DNA of 64,000 nucleotides from Acidobacteriota bacterium. Lineage in GTDB: Bacteria > Acidobacteriota > Terriglobia > Terriglobales > Acidobacteriaceae. Where the stretch lies: positions 248,001-312,000 of the forward strand of contig JAFDVW010000009.1 of assembly GCA_018268755.1 (NCBI GenBank), written 5' to 3'. The position numbers and the translations under genes were made by a program. The first letter of the stretch is position 1. The number at the start of each line of letters is the position of its first letter. The notes below the pieces were generated by a model. It ran no database searches and was not told where the DNA came from. It saw nothing but the letters and a program-made list of their open reading frames with translations. Positions 502 to 30,633 of the stretch are shown here, one piece after another.

Positions 502-1485
502 TCAGTAGTAGCAGAGCTTGAAGGCGCCCTTGTAGCAGACGGCGCGCGTCCGCTTGGCCCGGCTGTGGGTGTAGGAGTCCCAGCGATCGGCGAAATCGGC
601 AAAGGCCTTCTCTCCCGTCAGGCGCTGCATGATGCCCAATTGCACAATGTGCAGGCGGTGATAGAACGGGCTGGCCACCATGGGCAGGCGCGTTCCGGAG
701 AGCTCATAGAGCGACCAGAAACCGAGATCGTAGCGCTGCAGATTGGCCAGAACGGTTTGTACCGCGGCGTCAAACAGCCGCTGCGCCTCCGGCTCGCCCG
801 TGGCCAGGAAGTAGTCATACACGCCCCACATGGCCCATAGGAACCCATTGAGGATGTGCGTGGGCGGCGCGACGATGTACTCCTCAAACCACAAATTGCC
901 TTGCGCATCGCGGAAACTCACGCCGCCCTGCTCCACCGGCCGAAGAAAGCTATGCAAGGCGCGCGTCGCGGCCTCACGATACTGCGGCGCGTGCGTTTCC
1001 CGATACGCCCGCAACAACAGGGAAATTCCCTGCCCCTGCGCCAGGCCCGAATACCACGGCGCTTTCAGCCGCGAACGATACTCCCAGTCGAACTGATGGT
1101 TCCACACCCAGACGCCGTGCGCATTCGGCTCCAGAGTGCGGCAGAGCCAATCGGCGGCGCCCAGGAATCTGGTCTTCCGTTCTTCGCTGCGACTGCGGCA
1201 AAACAGGTTGTAGTTGCCCAGACCCCACTGCGCAACGGCGATGGGGTTGTATTGCCGCCCGATCTGCCCGCGATAGTCGAGCAGGGGGATCCCGTCCGCA
1301 TCATGGGGGCCCGCGTAGTCGGCCTTCTGGGAAAACTGCATGTAATATTCGCCGAGTTGGTGGACGGTCGCGGCGGGATTCGGTTCCGGCGTATCGTGCC
1401 AGAAAGTAAGCTGGCTGCGGCCCCAGCCGAGATAGGCGGGAAGGATGCGCCGGTAATATTGCAGCCGCTTAACCAGAATCGACAT
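502..1485 (-). CDS. D-glucuronyl C5-epimerase family protein
   Basis: A 327-residue protein matching the C-terminal domain of heparan-sulfate/heparosan glucuronyl C5-epimerases (Glce family). What I see: YYMQFSQKADYAGP, then GIPLLDYRGQIGRQYNPIAV and GLGNYN near the N-terminus, SGLAQGQGISLLLRAY in the middle, and PMVASPFYHRLHIVQL near the end. These are the conserved blocks of the alpha/alpha-barrel. Family members convert D-glucuronate to L-iduronate at the polymer level. There is no clear signal peptide; the start MSILVKRLQYYRR looks amphipathic. Its place in an operon with glycosyltransferases, amidotransferases and a carbamoyltransferase points to a uronic-acid-containing, glycosaminoglycan-like polysaccharide. 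Substrate identity is inference; the family is well supported. Confidence 0.88.
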   Translation of the reverse strand: MSILVKRLQYYRRILPAYLGWGRSQLTFWHDTPEPNPAATVHQLGEYYMQFSQKADYAGPHDADGIPLLDYRGQIGRQYNPIAVAQWGLGNYNLFCRSRSEERKTRFLGAADWLCRTLEPNAHGVWVWNHQFDWEYRSRLKAPWYSGLAQGQGISLLLRAYRETHAPQYREAATRALHSFLRPVEQGGVSFRDAQGNLWFEEYIVAPPTHILNGFLWAMWGVYDYFLATGEPEAQRLFDAAVQTVLANLQRYDLGFWSLYELSGTRLPMVASPFYHRLHIVQLGIMQRLTGEKAFADFADRWDSYTHSRAKRTRAVCYKGAFKLCYY

Positions 1486-1536
1486 GATCTTAATTGCGAC
1501 TATAGCACCGGCAAAGCGCGCAACCGGCGGCCGGGG

Positions 1537-2622
1537 TCACTCTGTGTTGACTCGCCAGACACTGGTTTCGAAGTCATGGCCCTGCACGGCGATGGTGCTG
1601 AGCGCGAGCAAACCGCTGGTATTTTCTCCCCCGGGAAGAAAGGCGTTGCCGTATTGAAAGAAGCGCATCGGCCAGCCGTCCTTTTTCCAGGCCAGCAGCG
1701 GCTGCCAATCCCCACCGTGGAGGCTTCCGTAGAGACGCACATGACGGTCAGCATTCACCTGGCTGGGCTCCACCATGGTGGAGAAAAACATGGCGTCCCC
1801 CGCGCGGCAGCCCGCGATGGAAGAGCTGCTCAACGGGGCAAGGGGCGCGACCTCGCCGCCACGGCCGAGAAAGTATACGGAGTTCTTTTCCAGCGGCGTA
1901 TCGGATGCAAAATACAACCCATGCTCCGCTGGAACGGCAGCCACGGCGCGGGCCTGCTGATTTCCGGCCAGCACCGTCTCCACGCTGCGGAAATCGCAGG
2001 AGGCGCGCAGGATACGGCATTCGGGGCCGTTATCGCCGGTCAGCACCCACAGGCAATCCTCCCAGCGGTCATAGAGAATGTTGTGCACGTGGCGAATGGC
2101 CCCGCGCGGGAAGGTATACGCCACGCTCCAGGTTTCGCCGCCATCCTGCGATCCGTAGATGTGCACTTCGTCCCGCGCCGGATTATCGAAATACTCTCCC
2201 CAGAAGAACTGCCCGGCAGGGGTGGCGGCGATATGCAGTGGACGCGTGCCGCGAACAATCCGATGGGTCCGGCGAAACTCCCGTTCTCCCGCGCGCAAGC
2301 TCAAAATCGCACCGGGAACTGCGGCAACCATGTGGCCGGCCGGCAAAACCGCAAGCGCGTGAAACCCATCGCGCAGCAGCCGCGAAGTCAGGCTTGTGAA
2401 AGAAGTGAGCGAGCGAAGCCACGAGGGCACGAAACTAGCCAGCTCTCGCCAGACGATCGGTGTCTGGGCCATCTCGGCATACAGCAAGCGATAGCCTCGG
2501 CTGGCATAGAGACGGCTGCCGGCCCAGAACAGAGCGCGCAATCCCGGAAACACCGCTTCCTGCGCCAGGCGCAGCCGTCCCGCCGTTGGCGGAAACGCCG
2601 GAATTGCGGGATTTGCCGCCAC
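1537..2622 (-). CDS. Unrecognised protein with one Asp-box (BNR/sialidase-like beta-propeller?)
   Basis: A 361-residue protein from a GTG at 2622, chosen because GGGAGAAGG lies just upstream and this start begins 14 bp after the preceding stop. A longer reading from 2706 would overlap the carbamoyltransferase gene. The segment YGSQDGGETWSVAY contains a canonical Asp-box (SxDxGxTW), which is typical of sialidase-like and other beta-propellers. Other blade-like repeats are weaker (LYGSLHGGDWQPLLAW). The first 60 residues are Ala/Arg-rich without a clear signal peptide. I do not recognise a specific family. In related loci the bi-domain oxidoreductase upstream is often followed by a heparinase II/III-type protein; this one may fill an analogous polymer-binding or polymer-modifying slot, which is speculation. 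Confidence 0.6.
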   Translation of the reverse strand: MAANPAIPAFPPTAGRLRLAQEAVFPGLRALFWAGSRLYASRGYRLLYAEMAQTPIVWRELASFVPSWLRSLTSFTSLTSRLLRDGFHALAVLPAGHMVAAVPGAILSLRAGEREFRRTHRIVRGTRPLHIAATPAGQFFWGEYFDNPARDEVHIYGSQDGGETWSVAYTFPRGAIRHVHNILYDRWEDCLWVLTGDNGPECRILRASCDFRSVETVLAGNQQARAVAAVPAEHGLYFASDTPLEKNSVYFLGRGGEVAPLAPLSSSSIAGCRAGDAMFFSTMVEPSQVNADRHVRLYGSLHGGDWQPLLAWKKDGWPMRFFQYGNAFLPGGENTSGLLALSTIAVQGHDFETSVWRVNTE

Positions 2623-2636
2623 TTCCTTCTCCCTGG

Positions 2637-4370
2637 TTAGTTTTCGACCTTGAGCGCGAGAAAAGGCCCGATGGCCAATGCATCCATGCGGGTGCGCCGG
2701 AAACAATCAATGGCTTCCTCCGGGGCGCAGACAATCGGCTCATTCTCGTTGAAGCTGGTGTTGAGAATCACCGGGATGCCACTCTTGCGCTCAAAGGCGC
2801 GGATCAGATCATAGTAAAGCGGGTTCTCTTCGCGGCTCACGCTTTGCAGCCGCCCGGTGTCATCCACATGGTTCACCGCGCACAATTGCGCGCGTTTTTC
2901 CGGACGAATCTTGTATACGTGCAGCATGAACGGCGAAGGATGGCCATGCTCGAAATATTCGTTCTGCCGCTCCGCCAGGATGGAGGGGGCAAAGGGACGG
3001 AACCATTCGCGCTGCTTGATGCGCGCATTCAGAATATCCTTCATATTGGGCAGGCCGGGATGGGCCACGATGGAACGGTTACCCAGCGCGCGCGGCCCCC
3101 ACTCCATCCGCCCCTGAAACCAGCCGGTCACATTGCCCGCCGCAATCTGCTCGGCGACTGCTTCCAGCAAAGGCTCTCTTTCCAGCCTGCGATATTTCAG
3201 ACCCGCCTGCTGCAATGCGGCTTCAATGCGCGGCGGCGCAAACTCGGGCCCAAGATACGAGCGTTTCAACTCCTGGCGGCGCGGTTGCTTCAGCACGGAG
3301 TGATAGGTGTGCAGGGCCGCGCCAATGGCCAGGCCTTCATCGCCGGCGGCGGGCTGGATCCAGGTGCGGCGGAAGGGAGTGCGCGCAAAAAGCTTTCCAT
3401 TGGCCACACTGTTCAGGGCGCAGCCTCCCGCCATGACCACGTCCTCGAAGGGCACATGCTTGTGCAGCGTGTTCAGCAGATGGAAGAAGACTTCCTCAAA
3501 GCAGTGCTGCATAGCATACGCCAGGTCCATATCGCGCTGCGTGATCTCACTGTAGGGTTCACGGGGCGCGCCGAAGAGTTCCGCCATACGTTCGGAGAAA
3601 TGCCGCGCCAACTGCACCGTGCCATCGGGCAGCACCTGCATGCCTTGATTGCTGCCCAGGGGCTGGAAGAAATCCAGGTCGAGCTGGAAAGCGCCGTTCT
3701 TCAGCCCTACGATCTGCCGCAGCTGCTCACAGTAAGTGTCTTTGCCGTAAGGGGCCAGGCCCATGACTTTGCCTTCATCGCCGTATTTCTTGTAGCCGAT
3801 GAATTCGCAAACCATAGTGTAGAAGCTGCCCAGCGAGTGGGGCAGAAAAACCCGATGCAGCACCTCGATGTCATTGCCCTCGCAGCGCGCCATCATGGTG
3901 GAGACGAAATCTCCCGAGCCGTCATAGCTGAAGCCCGCCGCTTTTTCCCAGGGCGAGCAGTAATATGCGCTGGCAATGTGGGCGATATGGTGCTCTAAAT
4001 GGTGCACCGGAAAACGCAGCGAGGCGGGATCCACTTCAAGCGCCTGCGACAACAACGTCCGCACATCGCGCATGGATTCTTTGCGCTGCCGCAGGCGGAT
4101 GAAATTCAGGATCTTGGCGGGATTGGCCAGCGCATACTGAAATTTTTTGGCCAGATTGGCATCGGTGTCCGAACCCACCGCGACATGGTCGATGTCGGTG
4201 ATCTTCGCACCCGCCGCGTCGAGGCAGGCCTTGACCGCTAAGGTGGGGAACCCGCCGAAGTGCTTGGCGCGGTTCAGCCGCTCTTCGGCAAGGGCGAAGA
4301 CGACCTCGCCGTCCTGCACCAGGGCGGCCGAGGCGTCCGCGTGAAACATATTGAGGCCGAGAATCAGCAT
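2637..4370 (-). CDS. Carbamoyltransferase, NodU/CmcH/TobZ family
   Basis: A 577-residue protein of normal family length. The N-terminal Kae1-like adenylating fold is marked by MLILGLNMFHADASAALVQD and FALAEERLNRAKHFGGFP, and later by FSYDGSGD and GGCALNSVANG. The C-terminal domain has WGPRALGNRSIVAHP and NTSFNENEPIVCAPEEAI, the family signature. These enzymes make carbamoyl-adenylate from carbamoyl phosphate and ATP and transfer the carbamoyl group to a sugar hydroxyl. It sits between the bi-domain oxidoreductase gene (7 bp upstream) and the Asp-box protein gene (14 bp downstream), so it is almost certainly co-transcribed. The likely role is O-carbamoylation of an exopolysaccharide sugar. The sugar and position cannot be told from sequence. 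Confidence 0.9.
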   Translation of the reverse strand: MLILGLNMFHADASAALVQDGEVVFALAEERLNRAKHFGGFPTLAVKACLDAAGAKITDIDHVAVGSDTDANLAKKFQYALANPAKILNFIRLRQRKESMRDVRTLLSQALEVDPASLRFPVHHLEHHIAHIASAYYCSPWEKAAGFSYDGSGDFVSTMMARCEGNDIEVLHRVFLPHSLGSFYTMVCEFIGYKKYGDEGKVMGLAPYGKDTYCEQLRQIVGLKNGAFQLDLDFFQPLGSNQGMQVLPDGTVQLARHFSERMAELFGAPREPYSEITQRDMDLAYAMQHCFEEVFFHLLNTLHKHVPFEDVVMAGGCALNSVANGKLFARTPFRRTWIQPAAGDEGLAIGAALHTYHSVLKQPRRQELKRSYLGPEFAPPRIEAALQQAGLKYRRLEREPLLEAVAEQIAAGNVTGWFQGRMEWGPRALGNRSIVAHPGLPNMKDILNARIKQREWFRPFAPSILAERQNEYFEHGHPSPFMLHVYKIRPEKRAQLCAVNHVDDTGRLQSVSREENPLYYDLIRAFERKSGIPVILNTSFNENEPIVCAPEEAIDCFRRTRMDALAIGPFLALKVEN

Positions 4371-4377
4371 AGGAGGA

Positions 4378-6570
4378 TCAATATCGATGGTTTAGCAATG
4401 GCGCAGGGTCAACCGGGGTGGGCGTGCCGGAGCGCCGCGAATCCATGGCGCGAAGGGTGGCGAGCGTCGAGGTTACAATTTCGGGAAATGGGATGGGCGC
4501 CGCGCCGCCGCTCTGGATCGACCTGGCGAACTCGGCCCACTCTGCACGATGACCTTTGTCCTGGCGAAGATAAGACCGAACCGTCTGCTTGCGACCGTGA
4601 CGAACCAGCTCCAGCCGCCGGAAATCCTCGAGGACCGCCGCCGCACCGCTGCCGATGGCCTCAATGCGCTCTTTGGAGAAAGCCCGGTCCCCATTCACCA
4701 GATAACTGACCGTCCCCTGCGAACCATCTTTGAAGCGGAGCGCGATGGCAACGCTCTCGTCCTCCTGTCCACTCGACAAGGGCCTGGTTTCCACCTCAAC
4801 CGGTGCCGCGCCACACAGAAACGACAGGAGATCGATAAAGTGGCAAACTTCGCCTAGAATCCGTCCTCCGCCCTGCTCGGCATCAAGCGTCCAGTGCCCG
4901 GGCGGCAGCGGACCGGCGTTGATGCGGTAATGCAGGACCACCGGCCCTTGCAGCTCACGCAGGAACGATTTCATGCGCACGACCATGGGCGCGAAGCGGC
5001 GATTGAAACCTACCATCAGCTTCAAACTGGAATCTGCGCTCTGGTGCGCGCGCACAATCGCAGCCAGCTCTTCTTCCCCCAGGCAAAGCGGCTTCTCGCA
5101 GAAGACATGCTTCCCGGCTTGCAAGGCGGCGATCACCTGCCGGGCATGCAGATGATGGCGCGTGGCGATGACCACCGTATTCACCCCGGAGTCAGCGAGC
5201 ACCTGGGTTTCCTCGGTGGCGCAGTACTGGAATCCAAACTTCCGCGCCGCGTGGTGCGCGTGCGATCCCTGATTGGCGCAGATTCCCGCAAACTGCACTC
5301 CGGCGGTGCGGCGCATGGCCGGCAACAAGGTGCTGACTGCAAAGCTTCCCGCACCGAGCACGCCTACCGAGACGAGATTGTCCGCGCGCGAGTTTGCCGC
5401 CAGCTTGGGCTCCAGCATCAGCCGCCGGCTCACCTCCGTCAGGCCGGGATAAGTGATCAGCACGCCCAGCGACGGTCCCGGCGTTTTCCCGGTGATTACG
5501 TCATAGGCGCGGGCGGCTTCCTGCACCGCAAAACGATGCGTAATCAGCGGCCGCAGATCGAGCTTGCGCTCCCCCAGAAGCGCGAGAAACGCCTCCATAT
5601 TGCGGGTTTCCGTCCAGCGCACATAGCCAATGGGATAATCCCGGCCCTTCTGTTCGTAAGCCTCGTCATAGCGCCCGGGGCCATAGGAGCGCGAAATGCG
5701 GAAGTCAAGTTCCTTGCCGTAATAGAGCTTGCGTTCCAGCTCCATGCCGACCGTGCCGACCGCGGTGATCACCGCGCGATCGCGGGCCACCTCGGCAGCC
5801 AGATTGACCGGACCACTGCTCGGCGTCTCGGCGGTGATGAGGACAGAGTCAACCCCATAACCCTGCGTGTGCCGCAGGCCGAGGTCGCGAAACTCCGCTT
5901 CCGAAGAAGCCACGGCATCGGCCCCCATTTGCGCCGCCAGGGCAGCGCGGGCGGAGGAAATGTCCATGCCTAGCACGCGGCAACCTGCAGCCTTGAGCGC
6001 CTGCACGGTCAGCTGTCCCAACAAACCCAGACCAAGGACCGCCACCGTGTCACCGAGATTCACACCGGCGGTGCGAATGCCGTGCAGGGCCACCGCCCCG
6101 ACCGTGGTGAAAGCCGCTTCCTCAAAGCTGATGTCGCGACCCTCGAGAAATTTCGCCACCAGCAAGCGCGGCACATAGGCAAATTCGGCGTGCACCGCAT
6201 GGCCCGCGCCCGCGCAGGCCACACGGTCGCCCACATGAATGTCAGAAATTCCTTCGCCGACTTCCACCACGGTTCCCGCGCTGCTGTAGCCGAGCGCGCT
6301 GGGCTGGTCAAGGCGGCTTTGCACGGCGGAGGCGGCGGAAAGAATTCCGTCGCGGCGAACTTTGTTCAACACCTCGCGCACCAGGTCGGGACGGGCCTTG
6401 GCCTTTTGCAGCAAGCCCTTGCGGGCAAATTCTGAAGATGCGCGCTCGGTCCCGGCCGAAACCAGCGATGCGGCGATGCGCACCACCACACCACCGGGAG
6501 CGGCTTTTGGCGCGGGCACATCCAGCACCGCGATCTCGCCCGTGCGCGCGTATTGCAGCACCTGCTTCAT
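4378..6570 (-). CDS. Bi-domain oxidoreductase: Zn-type alcohol dehydrogenase + Gfo/Idh/MocA
   Basis: A 730-residue fusion. The start is the ATG at 6570, which overlaps the TGA of the upstream asparagine synthetase-like gene (ATGA coupling). A longer reading upstream lies inside that gene. Residues about 1-370 are a medium-chain dehydrogenase: MKQVLQYARTGEIAVLDVPA, then SALGYSSAGTVVEVGEG, and a Rossmann VLGLGLLGQLTVQALKAAG. Residues about 385-710 are Gfo/Idh/MocA: VGVLGAGSFAVSTLLPAMRR and the hallmark HVFCEKPLCL (EKP). This fusion is common in polysaccharide loci, often near heparinase-like or C5-epimerase-like genes. It is presumed to oxidise and reduce a nucleotide-linked or lipid-linked sugar. 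The exact reaction is unknown. Confidence 0.87.
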   Translation of the reverse strand: MKQVLQYARTGEIAVLDVPAPKAAPGGVVVRIAASLVSAGTERASSEFARKGLLQKAKARPDLVREVLNKVRRDGILSAASAVQSRLDQPSALGYSSAGTVVEVGEGISDIHVGDRVACAGAGHAVHAEFAYVPRLLVAKFLEGRDISFEEAAFTTVGAVALHGIRTAGVNLGDTVAVLGLGLLGQLTVQALKAAGCRVLGMDISSARAALAAQMGADAVASSEAEFRDLGLRHTQGYGVDSVLITAETPSSGPVNLAAEVARDRAVITAVGTVGMELERKLYYGKELDFRISRSYGPGRYDEAYEQKGRDYPIGYVRWTETRNMEAFLALLGERKLDLRPLITHRFAVQEAARAYDVITGKTPGPSLGVLITYPGLTEVSRRLMLEPKLAANSRADNLVSVGVLGAGSFAVSTLLPAMRRTAGVQFAGICANQGSHAHHAARKFGFQYCATEETQVLADSGVNTVVIATRHHLHARQVIAALQAGKHVFCEKPLCLGEEELAAIVRAHQSADSSLKLMVGFNRRFAPMVVRMKSFLRELQGPVVLHYRINAGPLPPGHWTLDAEQGGGRILGEVCHFIDLLSFLCGAAPVEVETRPLSSGQEDESVAIALRFKDGSQGTVSYLVNGDRAFSKERIEAIGSGAAAVLEDFRRLELVRHGRKQTVRSYLRQDKGHRAEWAEFARSIQSGGAAPIPFPEIVTSTLATLRAMDSRRSGTPTPVDPAPLLNHRY

Positions 6571-8552
6571 GCCGTGGCCGCCTGGGGAAAGAAATTCGCC
6601 GGCTGGGAAACCGCCGGGCGGTCGACAAAGGCCTGCATCCAGAGCTCGAGCGTCAGGAACTGCCAGAGTTGCATGGACCAGTCCTGCCTTCCGCTGCGAT
6701 GTTCCTGCACAAGTTTCCGCACAGCCTCGGCGCGGAAGATGCCCCGGTCCCGGATGCGCGACTCGTTGAGCAGATCGTCGGTCATCTCCTTCAGATCGTG
6801 GGCCAGCCAATAATCCACGGGAGCGGCAAAACCGGCCTTGGGCTGCGCCAGCACCTCCGCCGGAAGCACGTTCTGCATGGCGCGGCGCAGGATGTATTTG
6901 GTCACTGGACGCGCCCTGCCCTTTAGCTTCAGACTTGGCGGCACGTTCCAGGCCACAAATTCCGCCAGCTCGCGCTCCAGAAACGGCACCCGCACCTCCA
7001 CCGACGAGGCCATGCTCATCTTGTCGTTGTAAGTGAGGTTCAGGCTGGTCATGAAAATTTTCGTGTCGAGATAGAGCATCTGGTTCAGGAAGTCGGCGTC
7101 CCGTACCCGTGTGAACGACGCATGATGCTGTTCCGCCGGGTCATAGCCGCAGATTTCATCGGCGAAGCTGCCGCGATAAAGGGCCGACTTCTGCTCCCCA
7201 TCCAGATAGGTGCCGTTCCGCACAAAGCGCTCCATCGGCGGCAAAGAGGCGCTGCGTGCCATCTTCTTGGCCAGACGCACGCCGCCCTTGAGCCGCGAAC
7301 CGCGCAGTCCCGGCAAGTGCTCGACCGCGCCGGCGATCAGGTTTTGCAGCGACGCCGGAATTTTCCCGTAGACTTGCGCCCAGGAGTGGGCCACATGCTT
7401 GCGATAGCCGGCAAATAATTCGTCGCCCCCTACTCCGGAGAGCAAGACAGTGGACTGCTTCCGGGCCTCGCGGCATACCAGAAACGCCGTCAGGAGGGCG
7501 GGATCGGCGGTGGGTTCATCCATGTGCCAGGTGAGCTTGGGCAGCAGGTTGGCCACGTCGGGCTCGACCACGATGCGCTGGTTCTCACATCCCAGGTGCT
7601 GGGCCAGCCGCGCCGCTACCTCGGGATCATCCAGCGTCGATTCCCCGACACGATACTTCTCCGGAAAGGTGATGGTATAAGTGCGCACCGGCCGCCGCGC
7701 GGCTTGCGCCATCATGGCCACAATGCTCGACGAATCCAGCCCGGCGCTGAGAAACGCGCCCACCGGCACATCGCTGACCATCTGGGATTCCACCGAACGC
7801 CGGAAGCGCTCGTGGACCTCCTCCGCCAAATCCTCTTCCTGGCGCGGAAAGACATGGCCGGCGGGCGGGAAACGCAAGTCCCAATACTGGCGGATATTCC
7901 ATTGCCCATCGCAGTAGGTCGCGGTATGCCCCGCGGGCAGCTTATAGATCCCGCGAAACATCGTCTTCGGGTCCGGCACCCACAGGAAGGTCAGATACTG
8001 ATGGAGCGCGTGGGCATCAAGCTCCGCGGCAACGCCCGGCACTTCGAGCAGCGATTTGATCTCCGAAGCAAAGGCCAGCCGCGCGCCCTGCTGGAAGTAG
8101 TACAGCGGCTTCACCCCGAAATGGTCGCGCGCCAGGAACACGACGGGCCGCGGCCCACGCAGATCGCAGATGGCGAAGGCGAACATGCCGTTCAGCCGCT
8201 TTACGCACTCCGCGCCTTCCTGCTCATAGAGGCGCAGCAAAACTTCCGTGTCGGTATTGGAGTGGAAACGATGCCCTTTGCCTTGCAGCTCACGCCGTAG
8301 TTCAGCAAAGTTGTAGATCTCGCCGTTGTAGGTGATCCAAAGCGTGCGGTCTTCATTGGCCATCGGCATGTGGCCGCCGGCGGAGAGGTCCAGAATCGCC
8401 AGCCGGCGGCTGCCCAGGCCGATATAGCCGCCGTCGGGGAAGCGGCGCTCCCACACTCCGGAATCATCCGGGCCGCGATGCGCCTGCAGTTGTGTCATGC
8501 GCGCCAGGGTGTCGCGGTCGCCGCAGTTCACCACTCCGCTAATGCCGCACAT
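6567..8552 (-). CDS. asnB: Asparagine synthase-like glutamine amidotransferase (first copy)
   Basis: A 661-residue protein. The start at 8552 is set by the obligatory N-terminal MCGISGVV: Cys2 is the class II glutaminase nucleophile after Met removal. The glutaminase domain shows RGPDDSG, YNGEIYNF and TDTEVLLRLYE. The synthetase domain has the PP-loop VGAFLSAGLDSSS, which binds ATP, and GVGGDELFAGYRKH. The family normally makes asparagine. Homologues inside O-antigen and capsule clusters (for example WbpS in Pseudomonas) are linked to amidation of uronic acids, and the same role is inferred here. The gene overlaps the upstream GT2 gene by 14 bp and the downstream oxidoreductase gene by 4 bp. 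It is a clear paralogue of 9510-11444 but not a tandem duplicate, since the two differ widely. Confidence 0.88.
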   Translation of the reverse strand: MCGISGVVNCGDRDTLARMTQLQAHRGPDDSGVWERRFPDGGYIGLGSRRLAILDLSAGGHMPMANEDRTLWITYNGEIYNFAELRRELQGKGHRFHSNTDTEVLLRLYEQEGAECVKRLNGMFAFAICDLRGPRPVVFLARDHFGVKPLYYFQQGARLAFASEIKSLLEVPGVAAELDAHALHQYLTFLWVPDPKTMFRGIYKLPAGHTATYCDGQWNIRQYWDLRFPPAGHVFPRQEEDLAEEVHERFRRSVESQMVSDVPVGAFLSAGLDSSSIVAMMAQAARRPVRTYTITFPEKYRVGESTLDDPEVAARLAQHLGCENQRIVVEPDVANLLPKLTWHMDEPTADPALLTAFLVCREARKQSTVLLSGVGGDELFAGYRKHVAHSWAQVYGKIPASLQNLIAGAVEHLPGLRGSRLKGGVRLAKKMARSASLPPMERFVRNGTYLDGEQKSALYRGSFADEICGYDPAEQHHASFTRVRDADFLNQMLYLDTKIFMTSLNLTYNDKMSMASSVEVRVPFLERELAEFVAWNVPPSLKLKGRARPVTKYILRRAMQNVLPAEVLAQPKAGFAAPVDYWLAHDLKEMTDDLLNESRIRDRGIFRAEAVRKLVQEHRSGRQDWSMQLWQFLTLELWMQAFVDRPAVSQPANFFPQAATA

Positions 8553-9453
8553 GGGCAGCCTCTCGCAGCCGCAGTTCATAGACTTTGGCCTTGATGTGAA
8601 AGAACTGCACCGCCTGCAACCCGCAGTAGATCAGGCCGGGAACGCCATCCAGCAACCCGAGGCGGAAGAAATATTTGTAGAGGAACAACAAAGCGGATGA
8701 ACCAGGCAGAGCAAAAAGCTGCTTCTTCAGCCAGCGGCGGCGCTGGGCTTGCGTCCCGAAGAAGGCCGGTGGCAGGTCCTGGTAGCTCTCTTCCTTGTGC
8801 AACCAGACCCGCGCCTCCCAGTTGGAGTATTCATCGTGCTTCTGGATGTAACGGGAGAGCGACTCCACGTTGTGGTGCAGGACCGGGTTCTGCAATTTGC
8901 TGGTGCGGCCTTCGACCACCACGTGCTCATGCACTTCCATATCGCACATGGAGGCGTCCTGGTCGCGCAGGCGGCATTCATACCGGCCGCGGCCGCGGCG
9001 GAACAAGGACAGCTTGTGGAAGTTGGCCCCGCTGTGGCGCAGGATCCGGCCCAGAAAGAACATCTGCAGTTCGAGGAAATATCCGTTGTACTGGGGGTCC
9101 TGGATGGCGCGGCGAATCTCTTCCTGCAATTCCGGGGTCAACGCCTCGTCGGCATCGAGCAGCAAAATCCACTCATGGGCCAGCGGCAAGGTGTCCATGG
9201 CCCACTGCCGCTTCTTGGGCCATCCGCCGTGATAGTGAAACTGGACCACCTGCGCGCCGAAGCGGCGCGCAATCTCCGGGGTCTCATCGCTGCTGCCGGA
9301 ATCCACCACATAAACTTCCCCCAGGCCGCGCAAAGACTCCAGGCAGCGCGGCAGGTTCCGCGCTTCATTGCGCACGGGGACTATGACGCTCACCGGCAGC
9401 GCGCTTGCTCTCCCCCCAGAGTGCAGCGGCTTGGGTTCCGCTAGGTTTTGCAT
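8539..9453 (-). CDS. GT2 glycosyltransferase, WaaE-like
   Basis: A 304-residue protein. The frame is open back to 9537, but that start would overlap the upstream amidotransferase gene by 28 bp. The ATG at 9453 gives MQNLAEPKPLHSGG before the first strand VSVIVPVRNEARNL and is preferred. The GT-A motifs are VVDSGSSDETPEIA, the DxD-type LLLDADEALTP, and a long tail with HNVESLSRYIQKHDEYSNWEA, as in LPS inner-core beta-1,4-glucosyltransferases such as WaaE. The C-terminal hydrophobic stretch (LFLYKYFFRLGLLDGVPGLI) is typical of this group and probably membrane-associated. It is flanked on both sides by amidotransferase genes in one operon. Its donor is unknown. Confidence 0.85.
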   Translation of the reverse strand: MQNLAEPKPLHSGGRASALPVSVIVPVRNEARNLPRCLESLRGLGEVYVVDSGSSDETPEIARRFGAQVVQFHYHGGWPKKRQWAMDTLPLAHEWILLLDADEALTPELQEEIRRAIQDPQYNGYFLELQMFFLGRILRHSGANFHKLSLFRRGRGRYECRLRDQDASMCDMEVHEHVVVEGRTSKLQNPVLHHNVESLSRYIQKHDEYSNWEARVWLHKEESYQDLPPAFFGTQAQRRRWLKKQLFALPGSSALLFLYKYFFRLGLLDGVPGLIYCGLQAVQFFHIKAKVYELRLREAAHVRH

Positions 9454-9509
9454 TGGGACTCTTGCGCCCAGTGTACTTGAGGATGCTTGTGGATTGCCCC
9501 TGGGGGAAA

Positions 9510-11444
9510 CTAGGCAGTCACTGAGTGGAGAGTGCACCAGCGCTGCAGGACAAACAGGGTCCAGGGCCGCGACCAGGAAGTGCGTCCCCGCAGGAAGTCC
9601 TGCCAGACCTGGCGCACGGCCAACGGGTTCAACAAGCTGGCCAACGGGCCCTGCCCGGTCTGTTCCAGGGTTTCTTCCACGGTCGCCCGCAGCTCTTGGC
9701 GCAGCCAGTGATCAAAGGGCAGGGTGAAACCGCGCTTAGGGCGGCGGACAATAGCATCGGGCAAGTTTCCCTGTAGGGCGCGGACCAGCAGAGGCTTGGG
9801 CATTTGCGCGTCGCGCTTCCACTCCCCGGGCAGATCAAACAGCGCTTCCGCCAGGCGGTGGTCAAGAAGTGGTACCCGCAACTCCAGGCCATGCGCCATG
9901 CTCATGGCGTCGGCATCGCGCAGCAGCGTGTTCAGCATGTAGAAGCGCGATTCCAAATAGGAAACGCGATTGATGGGGTCCAGCCGGCGGGTACGCACCA
10001 CGCTCTCCTGCAAGGGGTGCAACATGCGTTCCAGGGCAGACTTGTCGACCGAGGTCAGCAGCGCGTCACGCTGCTCTGGGGTGAAGACCATGCGGGAAAG
10101 GAAGTAGGGATGCACTGCGTCCTGGCTGGCGCGGGCCAGCCCACTCAGCTTGCGACGCCGGTCGGACTTGCCGGCCGCCAGTTGCAGCGCGCCGGCCAGC
10201 GGCACCCTCACCAACCCGGGCATGTGCTCCCAGAAGCGGGAGAAACGCTCCATGTGGGGCACGGTATCAAAGCTGGAGTAGCCGGCGAAAAGCTCATCCC
10301 CGCCCAATCCGGAAAGAGCAACTTTGATGCCCGAAGCCCGCGTCTGGCGCGAGATCACGAAAGTGTTCAGCCCGTCCATGGTGGGCTGGTCCATGGCGGC
10401 CAGCGCGGAGGGGATGGCGTCCCGGACATCATGCTGCGAGACCAGGATTTCATGGTGCCGGGTACCGAATTGTTCGGCCACCAGACGGGAATATTCCCCT
10501 TCACTGAAATCTTCTTCACGAAAGACAATCGAGAAGGTATTGAGCTGACTATGGCTTTCCGCCCGCGCCAGAATTCCCGTGATCGCGCTGGAATCAATGC
10601 CGCCGGAGAGGAACACGCCCACCGGCACATCGCTCACCAGCTGCATGCCCACGGCCTCGTACAGCCGGGCGTCCAGTTCTTCTTCCAGCTTTTTGCGCGC
10701 GTCTTTGCCGGCCTTGGCACGGCCCGCGGCATCACGTTGGCGCTGCGGACCGGGGGCCAGGTCCCAGTACACAAAGTCGCGCGCCACGCCGTCCTGCCAC
10801 ATCAGGTAATGGCCGGGAGGCACGGCAGAAACGCCGTTCAGCAGCGTCGCCGGCTCATACACCGAACCAAAATTCAGGTAGCTGAGCAGGCCCGCGGGAT
10901 CTATCCGGCGCGAAACCAGCCCGCTGGCCAGCAGCGCGCGCACCTCCGAGGCAAAAAGGAAATAGGGCCCCGAAGTACAGAAATACAGGGGCTTGATGCC
11001 CATGGGATCGCGCGCCAGAAACAGGCGGCGGCGCTTCGCGTCCCAAATGGCAAAAGCAAACATGCCGCGCAGTTCATCCAGGCAGCGCTCATTCCATCGG
11101 CCAAAGGCCTTGAGCAAGACCTCCGTGTCGGAGTAGCTGCGGAAGCGCACGCCGTCCTGCTCCAGCCGCTTGCGGAGTTCCCGAAAGTTATAGATCTCGC
11201 CGTTGAAGATAATCACGTTGCCGGTTTCTGGGTCCAGCATGGGCTGGTGGCCGAGCGGCGAGAGGTCGAGGATGGCCAGGCGGCGGTGTCCCAAGCCAAC
11301 TTCCACAGGATCCCCGGTCGCCGGGCGAAAGATGGCCGTGCCACTGTCATCGGGACCGCGATGGGCAAGCGCGCGCGTCGCCCGCTCCAGGACCTCCGGC
11401 GGGACGATATCGTTGTGGGCCGCGATGCCAAAAATGCCGCACAT
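9510..11444 (-). CDS. asnB: Asparagine synthase-like glutamine amidotransferase (second copy)
   Basis: A 644-residue protein beginning MCGIFGIAAHND, with Cys2 as the glutaminase nucleophile. The glutaminase domain includes AHRGPDDSG, IFNGEIYNFRELR and SDTEVLLKAF. The synthetase domain has the intact PP-loop VGVFLSGGIDSSAI and SGLGGDELFAGYSSF. It is the first gene of the left operon, with the AT-rich acyltransferase gene diverging 215 bp away. Having two full-length AsnB-type genes separated only by a glycosyltransferase suggests two different amidation targets on the polymer, or one housekeeping-like and one specialised enzyme. That is inference; sequence alone does not separate the two roles. 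The usual length for the family is about 600-650 residues. Confidence 0.88.
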   Translation of the reverse strand: MCGIFGIAAHNDIVPPEVLERATRALAHRGPDDSGTAIFRPATGDPVEVGLGHRRLAILDLSPLGHQPMLDPETGNVIIFNGEIYNFRELRKRLEQDGVRFRSYSDTEVLLKAFGRWNERCLDELRGMFAFAIWDAKRRRLFLARDPMGIKPLYFCTSGPYFLFASEVRALLASGLVSRRIDPAGLLSYLNFGSVYEPATLLNGVSAVPPGHYLMWQDGVARDFVYWDLAPGPQRQRDAAGRAKAGKDARKKLEEELDARLYEAVGMQLVSDVPVGVFLSGGIDSSAITGILARAESHSQLNTFSIVFREEDFSEGEYSRLVAEQFGTRHHEILVSQHDVRDAIPSALAAMDQPTMDGLNTFVISRQTRASGIKVALSGLGGDELFAGYSSFDTVPHMERFSRFWEHMPGLVRVPLAGALQLAAGKSDRRRKLSGLARASQDAVHPYFLSRMVFTPEQRDALLTSVDKSALERMLHPLQESVVRTRRLDPINRVSYLESRFYMLNTLLRDADAMSMAHGLELRVPLLDHRLAEALFDLPGEWKRDAQMPKPLLVRALQGNLPDAIVRRPKRGFTLPFDHWLRQELRATVEETLEQTGQGPLASLLNPLAVRQVWQDFLRGRTSWSRPWTLFVLQRWCTLHSVTA

Positions 11445-14018: not shown

Positions 14019-15182
14019 TCAGTTCTGGAGGGATTGGGTCACACCCACCAACTCCTCGACATGCCGTTGCCAGGAGAACCTCCGCGCCCGTCCCTCTCCT
14101 GCCCCCGCCATCCTGCGCTGAACTTCAGCGGAACCGGCAATCAGGGCCACTCTCCGGCTAAGCTCTTCCGCGGAGAACCTGGGAAAATACCAGGCCGCTT
14201 CCCCGCAGATTTCCTGGTGCACCGGCAAATCGGAGGCCACGATGGGAAGTCCGCAGGCCATGGCCTCCACCAGAGGATGGGCAAACGTTTCAGCGTAGGC
14301 CGCGGTCACGTAAATGTGGCAGGCACGATAGAGGTGATGCAGCTGGCGATAGGGCACCGCGCCCAGTTCCACGATGTTCTCGGAAATCCCCAGCTCCCGC
14401 GCCAGCGCCGCCGCCCTCTCCGTCTGATAGGCCCCCGGGTTCTCCCCTGCCTCGAGTTTGCAGGTGAGAAACAACTTCACCGGCCGGTCTTTCATCTCCT
14501 TCCGCAACCGGGACAGCGCGCGAAATAGCGTCTCGAAGTTGCGGTAGTAGTTGTAGTGGCTCACCAGCAGCAGACGCAGCGCGTCCGCGCTGGCCGCGAG
14601 TTTCTCCTGCACCTGGGGCGCGAGGGGCGAGGAGTCCGCGAAAAAATGGGCGGGATCAAAGCCGTGGTGGATGGCGTGGATCGGCCGCCCCGTCCAGTTT
14701 TGCAATTCATGGGCGAAGGCCGCGCTGGGTGCGATGGTGCATTCAGCCCAGGCAATCGACCTCTTGGCCAGTACTGCCTTGGCGCGTGTATCCAGCCATA
14801 GGCCATATTCGCGGCGGGAGACGAGATCGCGATAGAAATCCGGCGAGGTGTACAGCGCATTGCGGGACAAAAGAATCTGGGGGACGGGAGAGTGGCGCAG
14901 CGCGAAATTGCCTGCGGAAATCAATACCTGGGCGCCGCTGCGACGCACCAACTCCGGCAGCTGCCGTTGTTCCCACCAGGCCCGCCCCAGGGAACCTCCG
15001 CCGCTCGCCACTTCCGGCCAGGAGAGATTGGGCAGCCCGGCAAATTCGCGCTGCACTACCGGCCCGGCAGCGATTGTAGTGTGGACTTGGGTCTGGCGCG
15101 AAAGGTGAGGAAGGACATTTCTGAGATAAGTCAGGCCTCCACCCGCGCTGGCGGCAAGGCCGTTCAGAAAGAGGCGCATCAT
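14019..15182 (-). CDS. GT4 glycosyltransferase
   Basis: A 387-residue GT-B protein. The start is the first of two adjacent ATGs (15182, 15179), overlapping the TGA of the ligase gene. It opens MMRLFLNGLAASAGGGLTYL, with the Gly-rich GGGLTYL loop common in GT4. The C-terminal donor domain has LLLVSHYNYYRNFETLFRAL, IVELGAVPYRQLHHLYRAC and the EX7E region YAETFAHPLVEAMACGLPIV. It is the last gene of the long minus-strand operon and converges on the AT-rich island. Donor specificity is not predictable. Confidence 0.87.
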   Translation of the reverse strand: MMRLFLNGLAASAGGGLTYLRNVLPHLSRQTQVHTTIAAGPVVQREFAGLPNLSWPEVASGGGSLGRAWWEQRQLPELVRRSGAQVLISAGNFALRHSPVPQILLSRNALYTSPDFYRDLVSRREYGLWLDTRAKAVLAKRSIAWAECTIAPSAAFAHELQNWTGRPIHAIHHGFDPAHFFADSSPLAPQVQEKLAASADALRLLLVSHYNYYRNFETLFRALSRLRKEMKDRPVKLFLTCKLEAGENPGAYQTERAAALARELGISENIVELGAVPYRQLHHLYRACHIYVTAAYAETFAHPLVEAMACGLPIVASDLPVHQEICGEAAWYFPRFSAEELSRRVALIAGSAEVQRRMAGAGEGRARRFSWQRHVEELVGVTQSLQN

Positions 15183-16621
15183 CGCCCTGCGGCGGGAATG
15201 CCGGGCTGCCACCGCTCTGGCCTGGGCCGGGTCCAGCGCAGAAGCACGGGAGCGCGCGCCGGTTGGATGGCGGGCAGCATGTCCACCAACAGGAAGGCAA
15301 GGACCCAGAAAAGCAGGCACAGATAATACCCCGGCGCAAAGAGCCAGTCCTCAAAAACGGTGTCCACCAGTCCCGCGGCGAGCACGGCCGCAAGCGGAAC
15401 GATGGGAGAAACGACCTGGCCGTCATTGCGCAGCCAGCGGAAGACCCGCTTCACATAAAGCCCAACCAGAAGCACCAAAGCCAAAAACGGAAGCACCCCC
15501 AGCAATCCCGTCCACTCGACAATTGCCAGGTAGCTGTTGCCGTGCTCGCGAGTAGTTTGCGCGCTGGAACTGAACATCGGGGTATACGATGCTTCTCCAC
15601 TCACGGCGCTGGTGCCAAACCCGGTGCCAAACCACGGGTGGGCCTGGATGGCGGCCGTAGTCTCGTCCCACACTGAACGGCGCGACCCAAACATGCCTTC
15701 GGTACGCCGCCCCTTGTAAAGATAGACCGTGGTTAGAGAGTCGGAGTCGGTGTCAAAGCCACGTTCTTTGCTCTCCAGGGGCCGGATGAAGATGGCCAGC
15801 GTGGCCGCCAGCAGAACAAACGCCGTGCCCTTGGCCATGGTGCGATAGTTGCGGCTGGCCGCGCACACGAGGAAACAGGCGATCAGGGCACTGAGAATGC
15901 CGGCGCGGGAGTAGCTCGAGAGCAGCAGCAGCAGCGCCACTCCGGTGGCCAGGGCCAGGCGCAAACGAGTCTGCCCTTCGCTGGCGAGGACTCCCCACAG
16001 CAGGAACGGCACCGCCACCACCCCCATCACCGCTCCCAGGGAATTCGGACTGTCAAACAGATCAAAGTGCAACAGGAAATACGAGGCTGCGGTGATATAG
16101 GTACCGGCCTCGCAGGCGGTCAGCAGGCCACGGACAAATTTTCGCTCATTGCCCAGGCCGGCCAGCCGGCCGCCGGCGGCCCCGTAGCCAAACAGCAGCA
16201 CCAGGCTGAGCACCTTGAGCAAGGCCAGTTGCGGGTAGGCCGAGACCACCGCCGAAACCAGCGCCGACAACAGGCAAATGAACGCCACCAGATGAAAAGT
16301 TGCGAAGTAGTGGCGCTGGTCCTTCATGTAGATGACGAACCCCACCAGCGTTCCGAGGGCGAGAACATACCAGCGTCCTGAGGTCCATACCGACGCCAGG
16401 GACAGTGGCATGCCCGCCCAGAAGAAAATCAGCATAAGCAGAACGAAAAAGCGCTGGCGGTAGTTCCACAGGGCTGCGATCAATATCTGCAGAATGATGA
16501 CGGCGCCCAGATAGTAGGCGTCCGTCAGATAGCCGGGGCGCCAGAATCCCAGCACCACCACGCTCAGGCTGCTGGCCAGCAGGAGCCCCGGAGCAATCAA
16601 ATTGGAAATCCGGCTAGGCAC
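15179..16621 (-). CDS. O-antigen ligase / Wzy-like polymerase family membrane protein
   Basis: About 480 residues with ten or more membrane segments. The start is a GTG at 16621, overlapping the stop of the upstream GT4 gene by 8 bp. A longer reading from 16783 runs through that gene. The large periplasmic loop late in the protein carries GSRRSVWDETTAAIQAHPWFGTGFG and a HGNSYLAIVEWTGLLG segment, which is the Wzy_C (O-antigen ligase) signature with its conserved His. Such proteins either polymerise repeat units or ligate glycans to a lipid or protein acceptor in the periplasm. A second, unrelated-looking member is at 35528-36850, so one may polymerise and the other ligate. Sequence does not say which. 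Confidence 0.85.
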   Translation of the reverse strand: MPSRISNLIAPGLLLASSLSVVVLGFWRPGYLTDAYYLGAVIILQILIAALWNYRQRFFVLLMLIFFWAGMPLSLASVWTSGRWYVLALGTLVGFVIYMKDQRHYFATFHLVAFICLLSALVSAVVSAYPQLALLKVLSLVLLFGYGAAGGRLAGLGNERKFVRGLLTACEAGTYITAASYFLLHFDLFDSPNSLGAVMGVVAVPFLLWGVLASEGQTRLRLALATGVALLLLLSSYSRAGILSALIACFLVCAASRNYRTMAKGTAFVLLAATLAIFIRPLESKERGFDTDSDSLTTVYLYKGRRTEGMFGSRRSVWDETTAAIQAHPWFGTGFGTSAVSGEASYTPMFSSSAQTTREHGNSYLAIVEWTGLLGVLPFLALVLLVGLYVKRVFRWLRNDGQVVSPIVPLAAVLAAGLVDTVFEDWLFAPGYYLCLLFWVLAFLLVDMLPAIQPARAPVLLRWTRPRPERWQPGIPAAGR

Positions 16622-17768
16622 AGGCCAGCGCTCCCGTCCCCCGGACCGCTGCGGCGATCCCTTCTGCGCAAAGCCAGGGCGAATATCGCGCGATCCGCCG
16701 CTGGCTGGCCAGTCCCATTTGCCGGCGAAGTCCCGGGCTGCAGGAAAGTCTTTGCATGGCGGCGGCCAGATAGGCGGCATCATGCGGAATCAGGCGCAGA
16801 CCGTTTTCTCCGTCGGTCACCAAATCCGCGGCGCAGCCCGCCGCCGAACTCACCAGCAAGGGCAGCCCGCAAGCCATGGCTTCGTTGACCACCAATCCCC
16901 AGGTATCGCTGTGGGTGGGAAACACAAATACCTCGGCCAGCCCGTAGTAAGCGGCCAGCTTTTCCCGGTGGAGAAACCCGGGAAAATGTACCCGGCCGGG
17001 AACCAGGCGCGTGGCCCGCTCTTGCAATTCGGCGCGGACCGGACCGTCGCCGGCCAGCACCAGGGCCACTTCCTCGCGGACCTGCTGGGGAAGGGCCGCA
17101 TAAGCATCCAGCAGATCGAACACGCCCTTCTCTTTCACCAGACGCCCCACGAATAGATAAAAACGCTGGGGCAGCCCCAGGGCCTGGCGTTGGCCCTCGG
17201 CGTCGGCGCGAACGGCCTCGGCAGCGGCAGAGAAAAAATCACTGTCCACCGCGTTAGGGGCTGTGAAAATGCGGTCGCGGGCAATACCGAAACTCTGCAC
17301 ATACTCCCCCGATGACTTTCCCGGCACGACAAAGCCCTGGCAACTGCGCAGGAAGCGGAGCTTCGCCGATTCCACCAGGGCATAGCTCGAGCGCTGGTCA
17401 TGCAAGGTGCTCTCCACCCAGGCCAAGAACGGTACGTTGTGACGGCGCGCCCAATAAAGACTCTGCCAGGCTGCCAGGTAGCTATAACCGCCGCACAGCA
17501 CCACCTCGGGGGCGGCCTGCTGCAGGGCCGGCGCCACCTCGCGATTGATGAGCAAGGGATGTTTCCCCACCCGCCGCCGCCAGGAGGGAAGCACCTCATA
17601 GGAGAACCGGATCTCCTCGTGATACACGCGCCACTGTCGCAGGCCAGCGTCGGTCTCGGAGAGAAAGATCACGTGCAGATCAAGCTCCGGCTGTCGCGCC
17701 AGGGCGTTAAACACCGGAATGCGATAGGGAGCAATGATCTCCGTGAGCAGGACCAGACGCTGCTTCAT
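16614..17768 (-). CDS. GT4 glycosyltransferase
   Basis: A 384-residue protein. The start MKQRLVLLTEIIAPYRIPVF at 17768 overlaps the upstream TGA (ATGA). The N-terminal domain has the IIAPYRIPVFNALA loop typical of GT4 members acting in O-antigen synthesis. The C-terminal domain has RFYLFVGRLVKEKGVFDLLD, a phosphate-binding region, and HSDTWGLVVNEAMACGLPLL (EX7E). This is the third of four consecutive GT4 genes transcribed in the same direction. Donor and linkage are unknown. Confidence 0.88.
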   Translation of the reverse strand: MKQRLVLLTEIIAPYRIPVFNALARQPELDLHVIFLSETDAGLRQWRVYHEEIRFSYEVLPSWRRRVGKHPLLINREVAPALQQAAPEVVLCGGYSYLAAWQSLYWARRHNVPFLAWVESTLHDQRSSYALVESAKLRFLRSCQGFVVPGKSSGEYVQSFGIARDRIFTAPNAVDSDFFSAAAEAVRADAEGQRQALGLPQRFYLFVGRLVKEKGVFDLLDAYAALPQQVREEVALVLAGDGPVRAELQERATRLVPGRVHFPGFLHREKLAAYYGLAEVFVFPTHSDTWGLVVNEAMACGLPLLVSSAAGCAADLVTDGENGLRLIPHDAAYLAAAMQRLSCSPGLRRQMGLASQRRIARYSPWLCAEGIAAAVRGTGALACA

Positions 17769-18933: not shown

Positions 18934-20028
18934 TTAACGGTCATGGTACCGGGCGACAGAGCGCAGAGACAGAAAGATTTCCTCCCAGCGGCGCGTAATC
19001 CCGTCCCAGTCGAACTGCAGGCTATGACGGCGGGCGGCGGCGCCCAATTCGCGGCGAAGCGAGGGCTGATCGAGCAAATCGTGCAGGCGGAGAAACAATT
19101 CGTCATCCGAAGAGACCAGGTACCCGGTTCTTTCATGCAGCACGCTCTCCGGCTCGTAATTGCGCCGGGCAATGACGGGCAATCCACAAGCCGCGGCCTC
19201 AAGAATGACCTTTGGCGAGCCTTCCCAGGAGGAAGGAAACAGAAAGATGTCGGACTGCTGATAGTGCCCACGCAAGGCTGGCGCGGCGAGGCCGCCAAGA
19301 AAGCTGACATTGCGCAGGCCTTCCCGGCGGACCCGGGCCTGGAGTTCCTCCCCCATGATGCCTTCGCCGGCCAGGGCAAAATCAGCCTGAGGAAAACGCG
19401 CCGCGGCCTCCAGCACGGTTTGTGGACCTTTGAAAGGACGCAGGGAGCCGGCAAAGAGGACGCGAGGACGCAGGTTCTCTGCTCTCTCGGACGCCGGGAC
19501 AAAAAACTGAGTGTCTACTCCCGTCGGTACTACTTCGCTGGCCCTCCCATATTCCCGGCGTAAGCTGCGCTGCACGGCCGGCGAATTGCTGTAGAGGTAG
19601 TCGCAGCGCAGGACCGTCTTTTCCCAAAGCTTGACCGCCTGGGGAGAGACCGTCGGCTCGTTGCGCAAATCGCTCTGTGATTCGACCGTCCCGACGGTCA
19701 CGCGCCGGCGGGGCCCTACGCGGCGCAAAGCCAGATAAATATGGTTGGCCGGCGAAGGCTTCACATAGAACAAAATTTCGTGCCTGCCAAAAAGCAGCTC
19801 GCGCAGAATGCGCGGCGTCTGCCGGCGCTGCGGCAAGGGGATGAGGCGTGTGGCCGGCCGGGCCGCGATTCGGGGGTCCGGCGGCCCCACGTGAAACAGG
19901 CTGACGTGAAATTGCGCCGGGTCCAGGCGGCGGACGATCTCGCGCGCATTGCCCATCTGCGCGTTGGTCAGGCCTTCATCGGCAAAACTATCGACAAGAA
20001 TGCGCACCACACCGGGAGAGGAACTCAT
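18934..20028 (-). CDS. GT4 glycosyltransferase
   Basis: A 364-residue protein starting MSSSPGVVRILVDSFADEGL. Residues in the donor domain include RVLFAGSLRPFKGPQTVLEA, VSFLGGLAAPALRGHYQQSD and SSWEGSPKVILEAAACGLPV (EX7E). The N-terminal domain has LTNAQMGNAREIVRRLDPAQ, indicating an enzyme that follows the usual GT-B layout with a short first loop. It starts 22 bp after the deacetylase-like gene. The sugar transferred is unknown. Confidence 0.86.
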   Translation of the reverse strand: MSSSPGVVRILVDSFADEGLTNAQMGNAREIVRRLDPAQFHVSLFHVGPPDPRIAARPATRLIPLPQRRQTPRILRELLFGRHEILFYVKPSPANHIYLALRRVGPRRRVTVGTVESQSDLRNEPTVSPQAVKLWEKTVLRCDYLYSNSPAVQRSLRREYGRASEVVPTGVDTQFFVPASERAENLRPRVLFAGSLRPFKGPQTVLEAAARFPQADFALAGEGIMGEELQARVRREGLRNVSFLGGLAAPALRGHYQQSDIFLFPSSWEGSPKVILEAAACGLPVIARRNYEPESVLHERTGYLVSSDDELFLRLHDLLDQPSLRRELGAAARRHSLQFDWDGITRRWEEIFLSLRSVARYHDR

Positions 20029-29896: not shown

Positions 29897-29900
29897 AGGG

Positions 29901-30632: not shown

Positions 30633-30633
30633 G

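Follow-up and report, generated by a model that had tools for sequence, protein, structure and literature searches.

The window analysed here, a 64,000-nt stretch of DNA from a Terriglobia acidobacterium, carries on its minus strand, between positions 502 and 11444, an operon that includes a gene for a Glce-type D-glucuronyl C5-epimerase family protein. The scan took in ten genes, beginning at the left end of the window. The genes of the operon and those just beyond the window edge are listed below in the direction of transcription of the operon. (Positions with the prefix L024 refer to the extended locus, in which window position 1 is position 10001.)

9510-11444, minus strand: AsnB-type glutamine amidotransferase (Pfam Asn_synthase 7e-88, GATase_7 1e-45)
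8539-9537, minus strand: GT2 glycosyltransferase (Pfam Glycos_transf_2 1e-16)
6567-8579, minus strand: AsnB-type glutamine amidotransferase, second copy (Pfam Asn_synthase 2e-97, GATase_7 3e-44)
4378-6573, minus strand: bi-domain oxidoreductase (Pfam ADH_zinc_N and GFO_IDH_MocA)
2637-4370, minus strand: O-carbamoyltransferase of the TobZ/NodU type (Pfam Carbam_trans_N/C, E 3e-69 and 4e-53)
1537-2706, minus strand: beta-propeller protein without known family (AlphaFold model)
502-1485, minus strand: Glce-type D-glucuronyl C5-epimerase family protein, 327 aa (PF06662, E 3.5e-51)
1-430 (L024:9168-10430), minus strand: 5' part of a WbuB-like GT4, which continues outside the window
L024:8190-9152: Wza-like gene (identified by reading the sequence)
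L024:6348-8000: WecA-like gene (identified by reading the sequence)

Because the intergenic gaps do not exceed 71 nt and several of the genes overlap, the genes between 502 and 11444, which form a single directon, were taken to be one operon. The gene at 11510 is divergent from it. At the other end the operon extends past the start of the window, since the WbuB-like GT4 gene starts at about window position 430 and crosses the edge; further to the left lie the Wza-like gene, on the other strand, and then the WecA-like phosphosugar transferase gene. A sequence-only reading of this DNA had named two AsnB proteins, glycosyltransferases, an oxidoreductase, a carbamoyltransferase and a C5-epimerase in this segment. 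All of them were recovered by Pfam matches at the same places and on the same strand; the gene at 1537-2706 was missing from that list.

The epimerase matched PF06662 with 173.8 bits (cut-off 23.3), covering positions 3-188 of the 188 of the profile. Among proteins of known structure, human and zebrafish GLCE matched it at E 1e-28 with about 31-33% identity. The catalytic residues of human GLCE, E499, Y500, N510, Y560 and Y578 (PMC13308652), correspond to E202, Y203, N213, Y260 and Y275 of the window protein, thus all five are present. In an alignment of 45 epimerase relatives E202, N213, Y260 and Y275 were invariant, and Y203 was found in 32. The AlphaFold2 (AF2) model of the epimerase, with a mean predicted local distance difference test (pLDDT) score of 93.3, is almost entirely helical. 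When it was used as a Foldseek query, the top eight PDB chains were all human or zebrafish GLCE (E 1e-13). The comparison of a structural model with GLCE, which the sequence-only reading had proposed, therefore came out in favour of the epimerase, with the full set of active-site residues in a fold that superposes at about 1.9 Å over about 212 columns. By its residues and fold the protein is a catalytically complete Glce-type domain, with predicted C5-epimerase activity. The N-terminal beta-hairpin and beta-sandwich domains of animal GLCE were not found in the 327-aa protein or its model; they are not required for PF06662. A hydropathy scan of the epimerase detected neither a signal peptide nor a membrane segment. 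Anchoring to the membrane through the two basic terminal helices was also considered and was dropped, the hydrophobic moments of these helices being unexceptional. Since no protein of the cassette shows a signal peptide, the substrate would likely be a lipid-linked repeat unit in the cytoplasm.

The epimerase has a patchy distribution. A PF06662 gene was present in 11 other genomes among 60 relatives, and of 297 genomes sampled from the whole phylum no more than 3 had a match to the window epimerase. The nearest relatives, judged by epimerase and neighbourhood, are metagenome-assembled genomes (MAGs) of Terriglobia/Acidobacteriaceae, including Candidatus Sulfotelmatobacter. Eight of nine examined same-family relatives with an orthologous epimerase carry several cassette genes around it, and their order is kept. 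A search through 84,980 species genomes yielded 80 C5-epimerase loci, in 79 of which a GT4 homologue adjoins the epimerase. About 40 Terriglobia loci have this gene order, with identities of roughly 50-85%, which puts it far beyond chance. Among the 29 Terriglobia loci with enough flanking sequence the propeller gene was near the epimerase in 25, AsnB in 20, the oxidoreductase in 20 and the carbamoyltransferase in 19. The other loci include some from Chloroflexota, Gemmatimonadota, Verrucomicrobiota, Neomarinimicrobiota, Bacteroidota, WOR-3, Omnitrophota and deltaproteobacterial MAGs; these phylum assignments are as titled, and single contigs may be contamination. Twenty loci of other phyla were compared over 3.5 kb of flank: GT4 was found in 19 and the oxidoreductase in 13, and neither carbamoyltransferase nor propeller was found within 3.5 kb of the epimerase. 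The persistence of GT4 and oxidoreductase in other phyla marks oxidoreductase - epimerase - GT4 as the core, with the genes for amidation and carbamoylation as an extension in Terriglobia. The neighbourhood comparison suggested by the sequence-only reading thus revealed an order that is conserved in Terriglobia and a core that is kept in other phyla.

The partner genes could be assigned with different precision. In the bi-domain oxidoreductase a medium-chain (MDR)/zinc-type alcohol dehydrogenase half is fused to a Gfo/Idh/MocA half, and PDB matches were obtained to both enzyme groups; by eye, the usual zinc ligands are apparently missing from the MDR part. The carbamoyltransferase matched PDB 7xb6 (E 2e-88) and TobZ (E 2e-80) over nearly its full length (TobZ 2-574 of 577), and has the Kae1-like N-domain and the C-terminal domain of the TobZ/NodU family. 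Both AsnB-type proteins retain the MCG start, which in the second copy is at about 8555. The first copy opens the operon and is variably present in relatives; the GT2 is kept in their cassettes. The propeller protein had no Pfam or NCBIfam match, and the fold search with its AF2 model (pLDDT 92) returned generic beta-propellers only. Its gene immediately precedes that of the epimerase in 42 of the 80 loci; within this set it occurs in Terriglobia only and always adjoins the epimerase. The protein represents a new family without a Pfam model, and its many invariant polar residues suggest a binding or catalytic role. The true start of the gene is probably near 2637 or later. In a separate observation, 14 genes (L048:4713-5633 and 13 others) located 2-4 kb upstream of the epimerase encode DDAH/amidinotransferase-like proteins. 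These loci, several of them titled Sulfotelmatobacter, retain the propeller gene and are without the carbamoyltransferase gene.

The right side of the window contains further polysaccharide genes: GT4s, a Wzy_C protein, acetyltransferase, methyltransferase and deacetylase genes, a PseB/NeuB-type set and Wzc. The features used below are the following.

14019-15320, 16614-17777, 17765-18922 and 18934-20028, minus strand: four GT4 glycosyltransferases (Pfam)
15179-16783, minus strand: Wzy_C-family polymerase/ligase (Pfam)
31906-34251, plus strand: Wzc-like chain-length/tyrosine kinase protein (Pfam Wzz, GNVR, AAA_31)
40216-41568, plus strand: UDP-sugar 6-dehydrogenase of the UDP-HexNAc type (PDB comparison)

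Three other regions were recorded in passing. Two long open reading frames of the polysaccharide locus (20051-21550 and 21300-23042, minus strand) match no Pfam family. At 27891-31989 (minus strand) genes for PseB (above the NCBIfam cut-off), a NeuB-like synthase (below cut-offs), an RmlD-like protein and a KdsB-like CTP transferase adjoin each other, an unusual set of nonulosonic-acid type with no obvious PseC aminotransferase. The region 34275-38604 contains, next to Wzc, a gene for a TPR protein that carries a carbohydrate-binding domain; it also contains a lipoprotein-like gene, for which Ig-like and Nal1_C (trypsin-like) matches were weak.

With the Wzy_C protein, the Wzz/GNVR/AAA protein and the Wza-like and WecA-like genes, components of the Wzy pathway are at hand, and by its gene content the locus is a large Wzy-type heteropolysaccharide/exopolysaccharide locus. 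The sequence-only reading had described the product as heparosan-like or glycosaminoglycan-like. A Kps/heparosan pathway was looked for and rejected: PF05159 (KpsC/KpsS) had no match in the genome, the E. coli control being positive, and in the absence of a KpsC/S gene heparosan is unlikely. The glycosyltransferases of the locus belong to the generic GT2 and GT4 Pfam families of ordinary exopolysaccharide type, although no search was aimed at KfiA/KfiC or PmHS. Together with the Wzy, Wzc, Wza-like and WecA-like genes these results do not bear out the heparosan label, whereas the other part of that interpretation, a C5-epimerised uronate accompanied by carbamoyl- and amidotransferases, stands.

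From gene content and modelled fold, the locus is best read as giving a product with a C5-epimerised uronic acid. We think it probable, at roughly 60%, that the operon belongs to a Wzy-type exopolysaccharide locus that builds and decorates an undecaprenyl-linked repeat unit with a C5-inverted hexuronic acid. One of the glycosyltransferases would place the hexuronic acid in the undecaprenyl-linked unit, and the Glce-type epimerase would invert C5 of the uronate at the cytoplasmic face, its Tyr/Glu pair presumably removing the C5 proton and giving it back on the other face. The carbamoyltransferase, going by its family, would put a carbamoyl group on a hydroxyl, and one or both AsnB proteins could amidate a carboxyl. 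The oxidoreductase may act at the same step or on a neighbouring sugar; Wzy and Wza would then polymerise and export the repeat units. Several observations weigh against this interpretation. Y203, the equivalent of GLCE Y500, is substituted in 13 of the 45 relatives, all from phyla outside Terriglobia. Because the N-terminal domains of GLCE are absent, oligomeric state and substrate length may differ from those of the animal enzyme. The cytoplasmic placement of the epimerase is based on the hydropathy scan alone. No Wzx gene was found in the locus; the genome has five PF01943 genes, the nearest about 200 kb away on the same contig.

The identity of the uronic acid was approached through the sugar supply. 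The sequence-only reading had pointed to a UDP-sugar 6-dehydrogenase further along. Such a gene exists at 40216-41568, 29 kb from the operon and on the opposite strand, but in PDB comparisons the enzyme scored 210 bits with UDP-ManNAcA dehydrogenase, 186 with Cap5O and 180 with GalNAcA dehydrogenase, against at most 121 bits with UDP-Glc dehydrogenases. Grouping with the UDP-HexNAc enzymes, it was dropped as a source of glucuronic acid (GlcA) and gives no evidence for UDP-glucuronate. A UDP-glucose 6-dehydrogenase was not found in the locus; the true one (397 bits) is encoded on another contig. Across the 80 loci only four dehydrogenases are near the epimerase, three of the HexNAc type and one of the UDP-Glc type, numbers that are not decisive for the substrate. 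A UDP-GlcNAc-2-epimerase/WbpI-like gene lies within 3.5 kb of the epimerase in 8 of the 20 loci from other phyla, its type being ambiguous (WbpI 307 bits, archaeal WecB 294 bits). In one of the loci (L092) oxidoreductase, 2-epimerase, UDP-ManNAc-type dehydrogenase, C5-epimerase and GT4 genes are consecutive. These HexNAc-type dehydrogenase and 2-epimerase-like neighbours raise the possibility that the product is an L-configured aminouronate and not iduronate.

On these data an L-aminouronate such as N-acetyl-L-gulosaminuronic acid (L-GulNAcA) appears as likely a product as L-iduronate, and each, taken singly, must be regarded as a tentative candidate. If UDP-GlcA made by the true UDP-Glc dehydrogenase were polymerised and epimerised to L-iduronic acid (IdoA), a glycosaminoglycan-like polymer would result, as the sequence-only reading had it. 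The nearest solved homologues of the epimerase, which all act on GlcA, agree with this, as do the presence of a true UDP-Glc dehydrogenase in the genome and of another one 2.3 kb from the epimerase in locus L087. It is opposed by the lack of KpsC/S in the genome, by the absence of any sign of a heparosan-synthase locus (for which no dedicated search was made), and by the HexNAc type of the dehydrogenase in the locus and of three of the four near the epimerase in other hosts. Alternatively, an N-acetylated hexuronate (ManNAcA, GlcNAcA or a diacetamido form) might be converted to an L-aminouronate, for example L-GulNAcA, and then amidated, as in the Vibrio cholerae polysaccharide VPS. The UDP-HexNAc dehydrogenase of the locus, AsnB in the operon, the 2-epimerase/WbpI-like genes in other phyla and the gene row of L092 are in line with such a route; yet no PF06662 family member is known to act on an aminouronate, and the 2-epimerase, ambiguous as to type, is not part of this operon.

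One relative without PF06662 has the oxidoreductase (64% identity), the same GT4 (67%) and Wza and WecA-like genes. In its locus (L115) a 726-aa heparinase II/III protein is encoded directly upstream of the oxidoreductase. (At L115:1627-3764 a formyltransferase-like gene and a GH127-like toroid gene stand in the place of other modification genes of the window.) This neighbour led to a survey of 65 oxidoreductase loci, taken mostly from a 396-genome sample of the phylum and not chosen for the epimerase. A heparinase-like gene was found on the same strand within 5 kb in 27 of them, one (L116) encodes a weak PF06662 protein (27.4 bits), and 37 have neither slot gene nearby. Among the 45 epimerase-selected loci with an oxidoreductase only L070 has a heparinase gene within 5 kb, and there it lies outside the slot. 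In total, heparinase accompanied 1 of 46 oxidoreductases with epimerase and 27 of 64 without (Fisher 4e-7), and with Terriglobia left out 1 of 18 and 27 of 64 (p 0.002); it counts against the exchange that the loci were partly selected by the epimerase and that the Fisher tests ignore phylogeny.

The position of the heparinase gene resembles that of the epimerase gene. In nine loci (L121, L124, L130, L135, L136, L147, L152, L162 and L164) it is followed by a GT4 gene whose product is 40-45% identical to the window GT4 and far less similar to other GT4s, and in L121, L124 and L130 AsnB and GT2 precede, as in the window. A quickly built tree of 92 oxidoreductases, many of whose forks are weak, required at least 10-11 changes between the epimerase and heparinase states (13-23 with shuffled labels), or 8 when only strict slot cases were counted. 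Mixed groups with starred support exist, such as a nine-row clade containing the window and L115. Four proteins (L123, L133, L165 and L176) that a local profile had indicated as divergent C5-epimerases had no PF06662 match and were dropped, and the statistics were redone. They are alpha/alpha-toroid-like with weak GH88/GH127 matches and are encoded just downstream of the oxidoreductase (L123:9284-10438, L133:8210-9439, L165:5872-7014 and L176:2934-4112). As they belong to the 37 loci without either gene, the slot may hold further enzyme families.

The slot heparinases matched heparinase III by profile (E 1e-44). When 11 of them were aligned to 4MMH, N224 and Y277 were invariant and H390 was conserved in at least 90%; the corresponding catalytic residues of HepIII are N240, Y294 and H424 (PMC12088678). 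Unlike in secreted lyases, a hydrophobic N-terminal stretch or signal peptide was found in none of 33 slot heparinases, and they showed no membrane segment. Human dermatan sulfate epimerase has the fold of these polysaccharide lyases and also their catalytic apparatus (PMC11848413). Going by gene position and retained residues, the slot between oxidoreductase and GT4 is most likely a "uronate C5" slot in which the heparinase-like occupant does the same reaction, so that elsewhere a heparinase-III-like protein would perform the C5 step in place of the Glce-type epimerase.

In its general form, that heparinase-II/III-like proteins beside the bi-domain oxidoreductase in exopolysaccharide operons are biosynthetic uronyl C5-epimerases and not lyases, interchangeable with Glce, so that two unrelated folds would have replaced each other repeatedly in one operon slot and would act on lipid-linked repeat units in the cytoplasm, the proposal is put forward with reserve, its chances being somewhat below even. 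Ordinary horizontal mixing, with the shared slot and the swap as by-products of modular loci without a common function, would fit the mosaic nature of polysaccharide loci and the 37 of 65 unselected loci with neither gene. It seems unlikely in view of the same flanking partners and order on both sides, the near absence of co-occurrence and the at least 8 swaps on the tree. A degradative or editing role, in which both kinds of slot enzyme remove faulty chains like the alginate lyase of alginate operons, is suggested by heparinase III being a lyase whose triad the slot proteins retain. We consider it quite improbable, because a Glce-type enzyme, without known lyase activity, occupies the same slot, and because slot enzymes lacking a signal peptide cannot meet the exported polymer.

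The locus bears on a class of sugars, the L-uronic acids, that govern the shape of polysaccharides, heparin and alginate among them, and their binding of metals. With the recurrent swap, the "lyase" annotation that is widespread in exopolysaccharide operons becomes an epimerase claim open to testing. Small, domain-minimal epimerases are also offered for chemoenzymatic heparin work. The enzyme family is a known one. The operon and the exchange in the slot seem to be without a description in the literature searched, where no relevant paper was found on the bi-domain oxidoreductase in such a context, on iduronate in Acidobacteria, or on heparinase together with C5-epimerase in exopolysaccharide operons.

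Animal GLCE is Golgi-luminal. The window protein shares with the human and zebrafish enzymes (PDB 6HZZ, 6I01 and 4PXQ) the catalytic alpha-helical domain and all five residues, but is only 327 aa long, has neither the beta-hairpin dimerisation domain nor the beta-sandwich domain and is predicted to be cytoplasmic. Export of heparosan in E. coli K5 uses KpsC/S. K5 makes a uronic-acid capsule of known structure (PMC4432689), a kind of polymer that the sequence-only reading had considered, whereas the window genome is without KpsC/S and its locus has Wzy, Wzc and the Wza-like and WecA-like genes. The chains on which GLCE acts have six sugars or more (PMC13308652). According to PMC13308652 and PMC4432689, which cite Raedts et al. 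2013, only one bacterial Glce-type epimerase, RED65_08024 of Bermanella marisrubri, has been characterised; a sequence alignment reportedly points to the catalytic mechanism of GlcE, and both its exopolysaccharide and its natural target are called unknown. The present analysis defines a conserved operon and the partners that recur across phyla, and with a genetic context conserved over several phyla the natural substrate can be found. In Halobacterium salinarum, Agl32 makes IdoA while the oligosaccharide is still lipid-linked and not yet exported, which is also the timing that we infer here, although with an unrelated active site that has none of the GLCE residues (PMC13308652). The VPS of Vibrio cholerae contains L-GulNAcA amidated with glycine, for which the L-configuration was proposed to arise by C5 inversion; the epimerising enzyme was not identified in that study (PMC3901696), and the likeness to the window would be one of product chemistry. 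Finally, the slot heparinases match PL12 with its triad intact and, through the fold and catalytic apparatus common to these lyases and DS-epi1 (PMC11848413), resemble the dermatan sulfate epimerase, which itself was not hit by sequence; they lack a signal peptide and lie in biosynthetic operons. If the exchange is real, bacteria would use both folds that animals use for glycosaminoglycan epimerisation, that of GLCE for heparan and that of DSE for dermatan sulfate.

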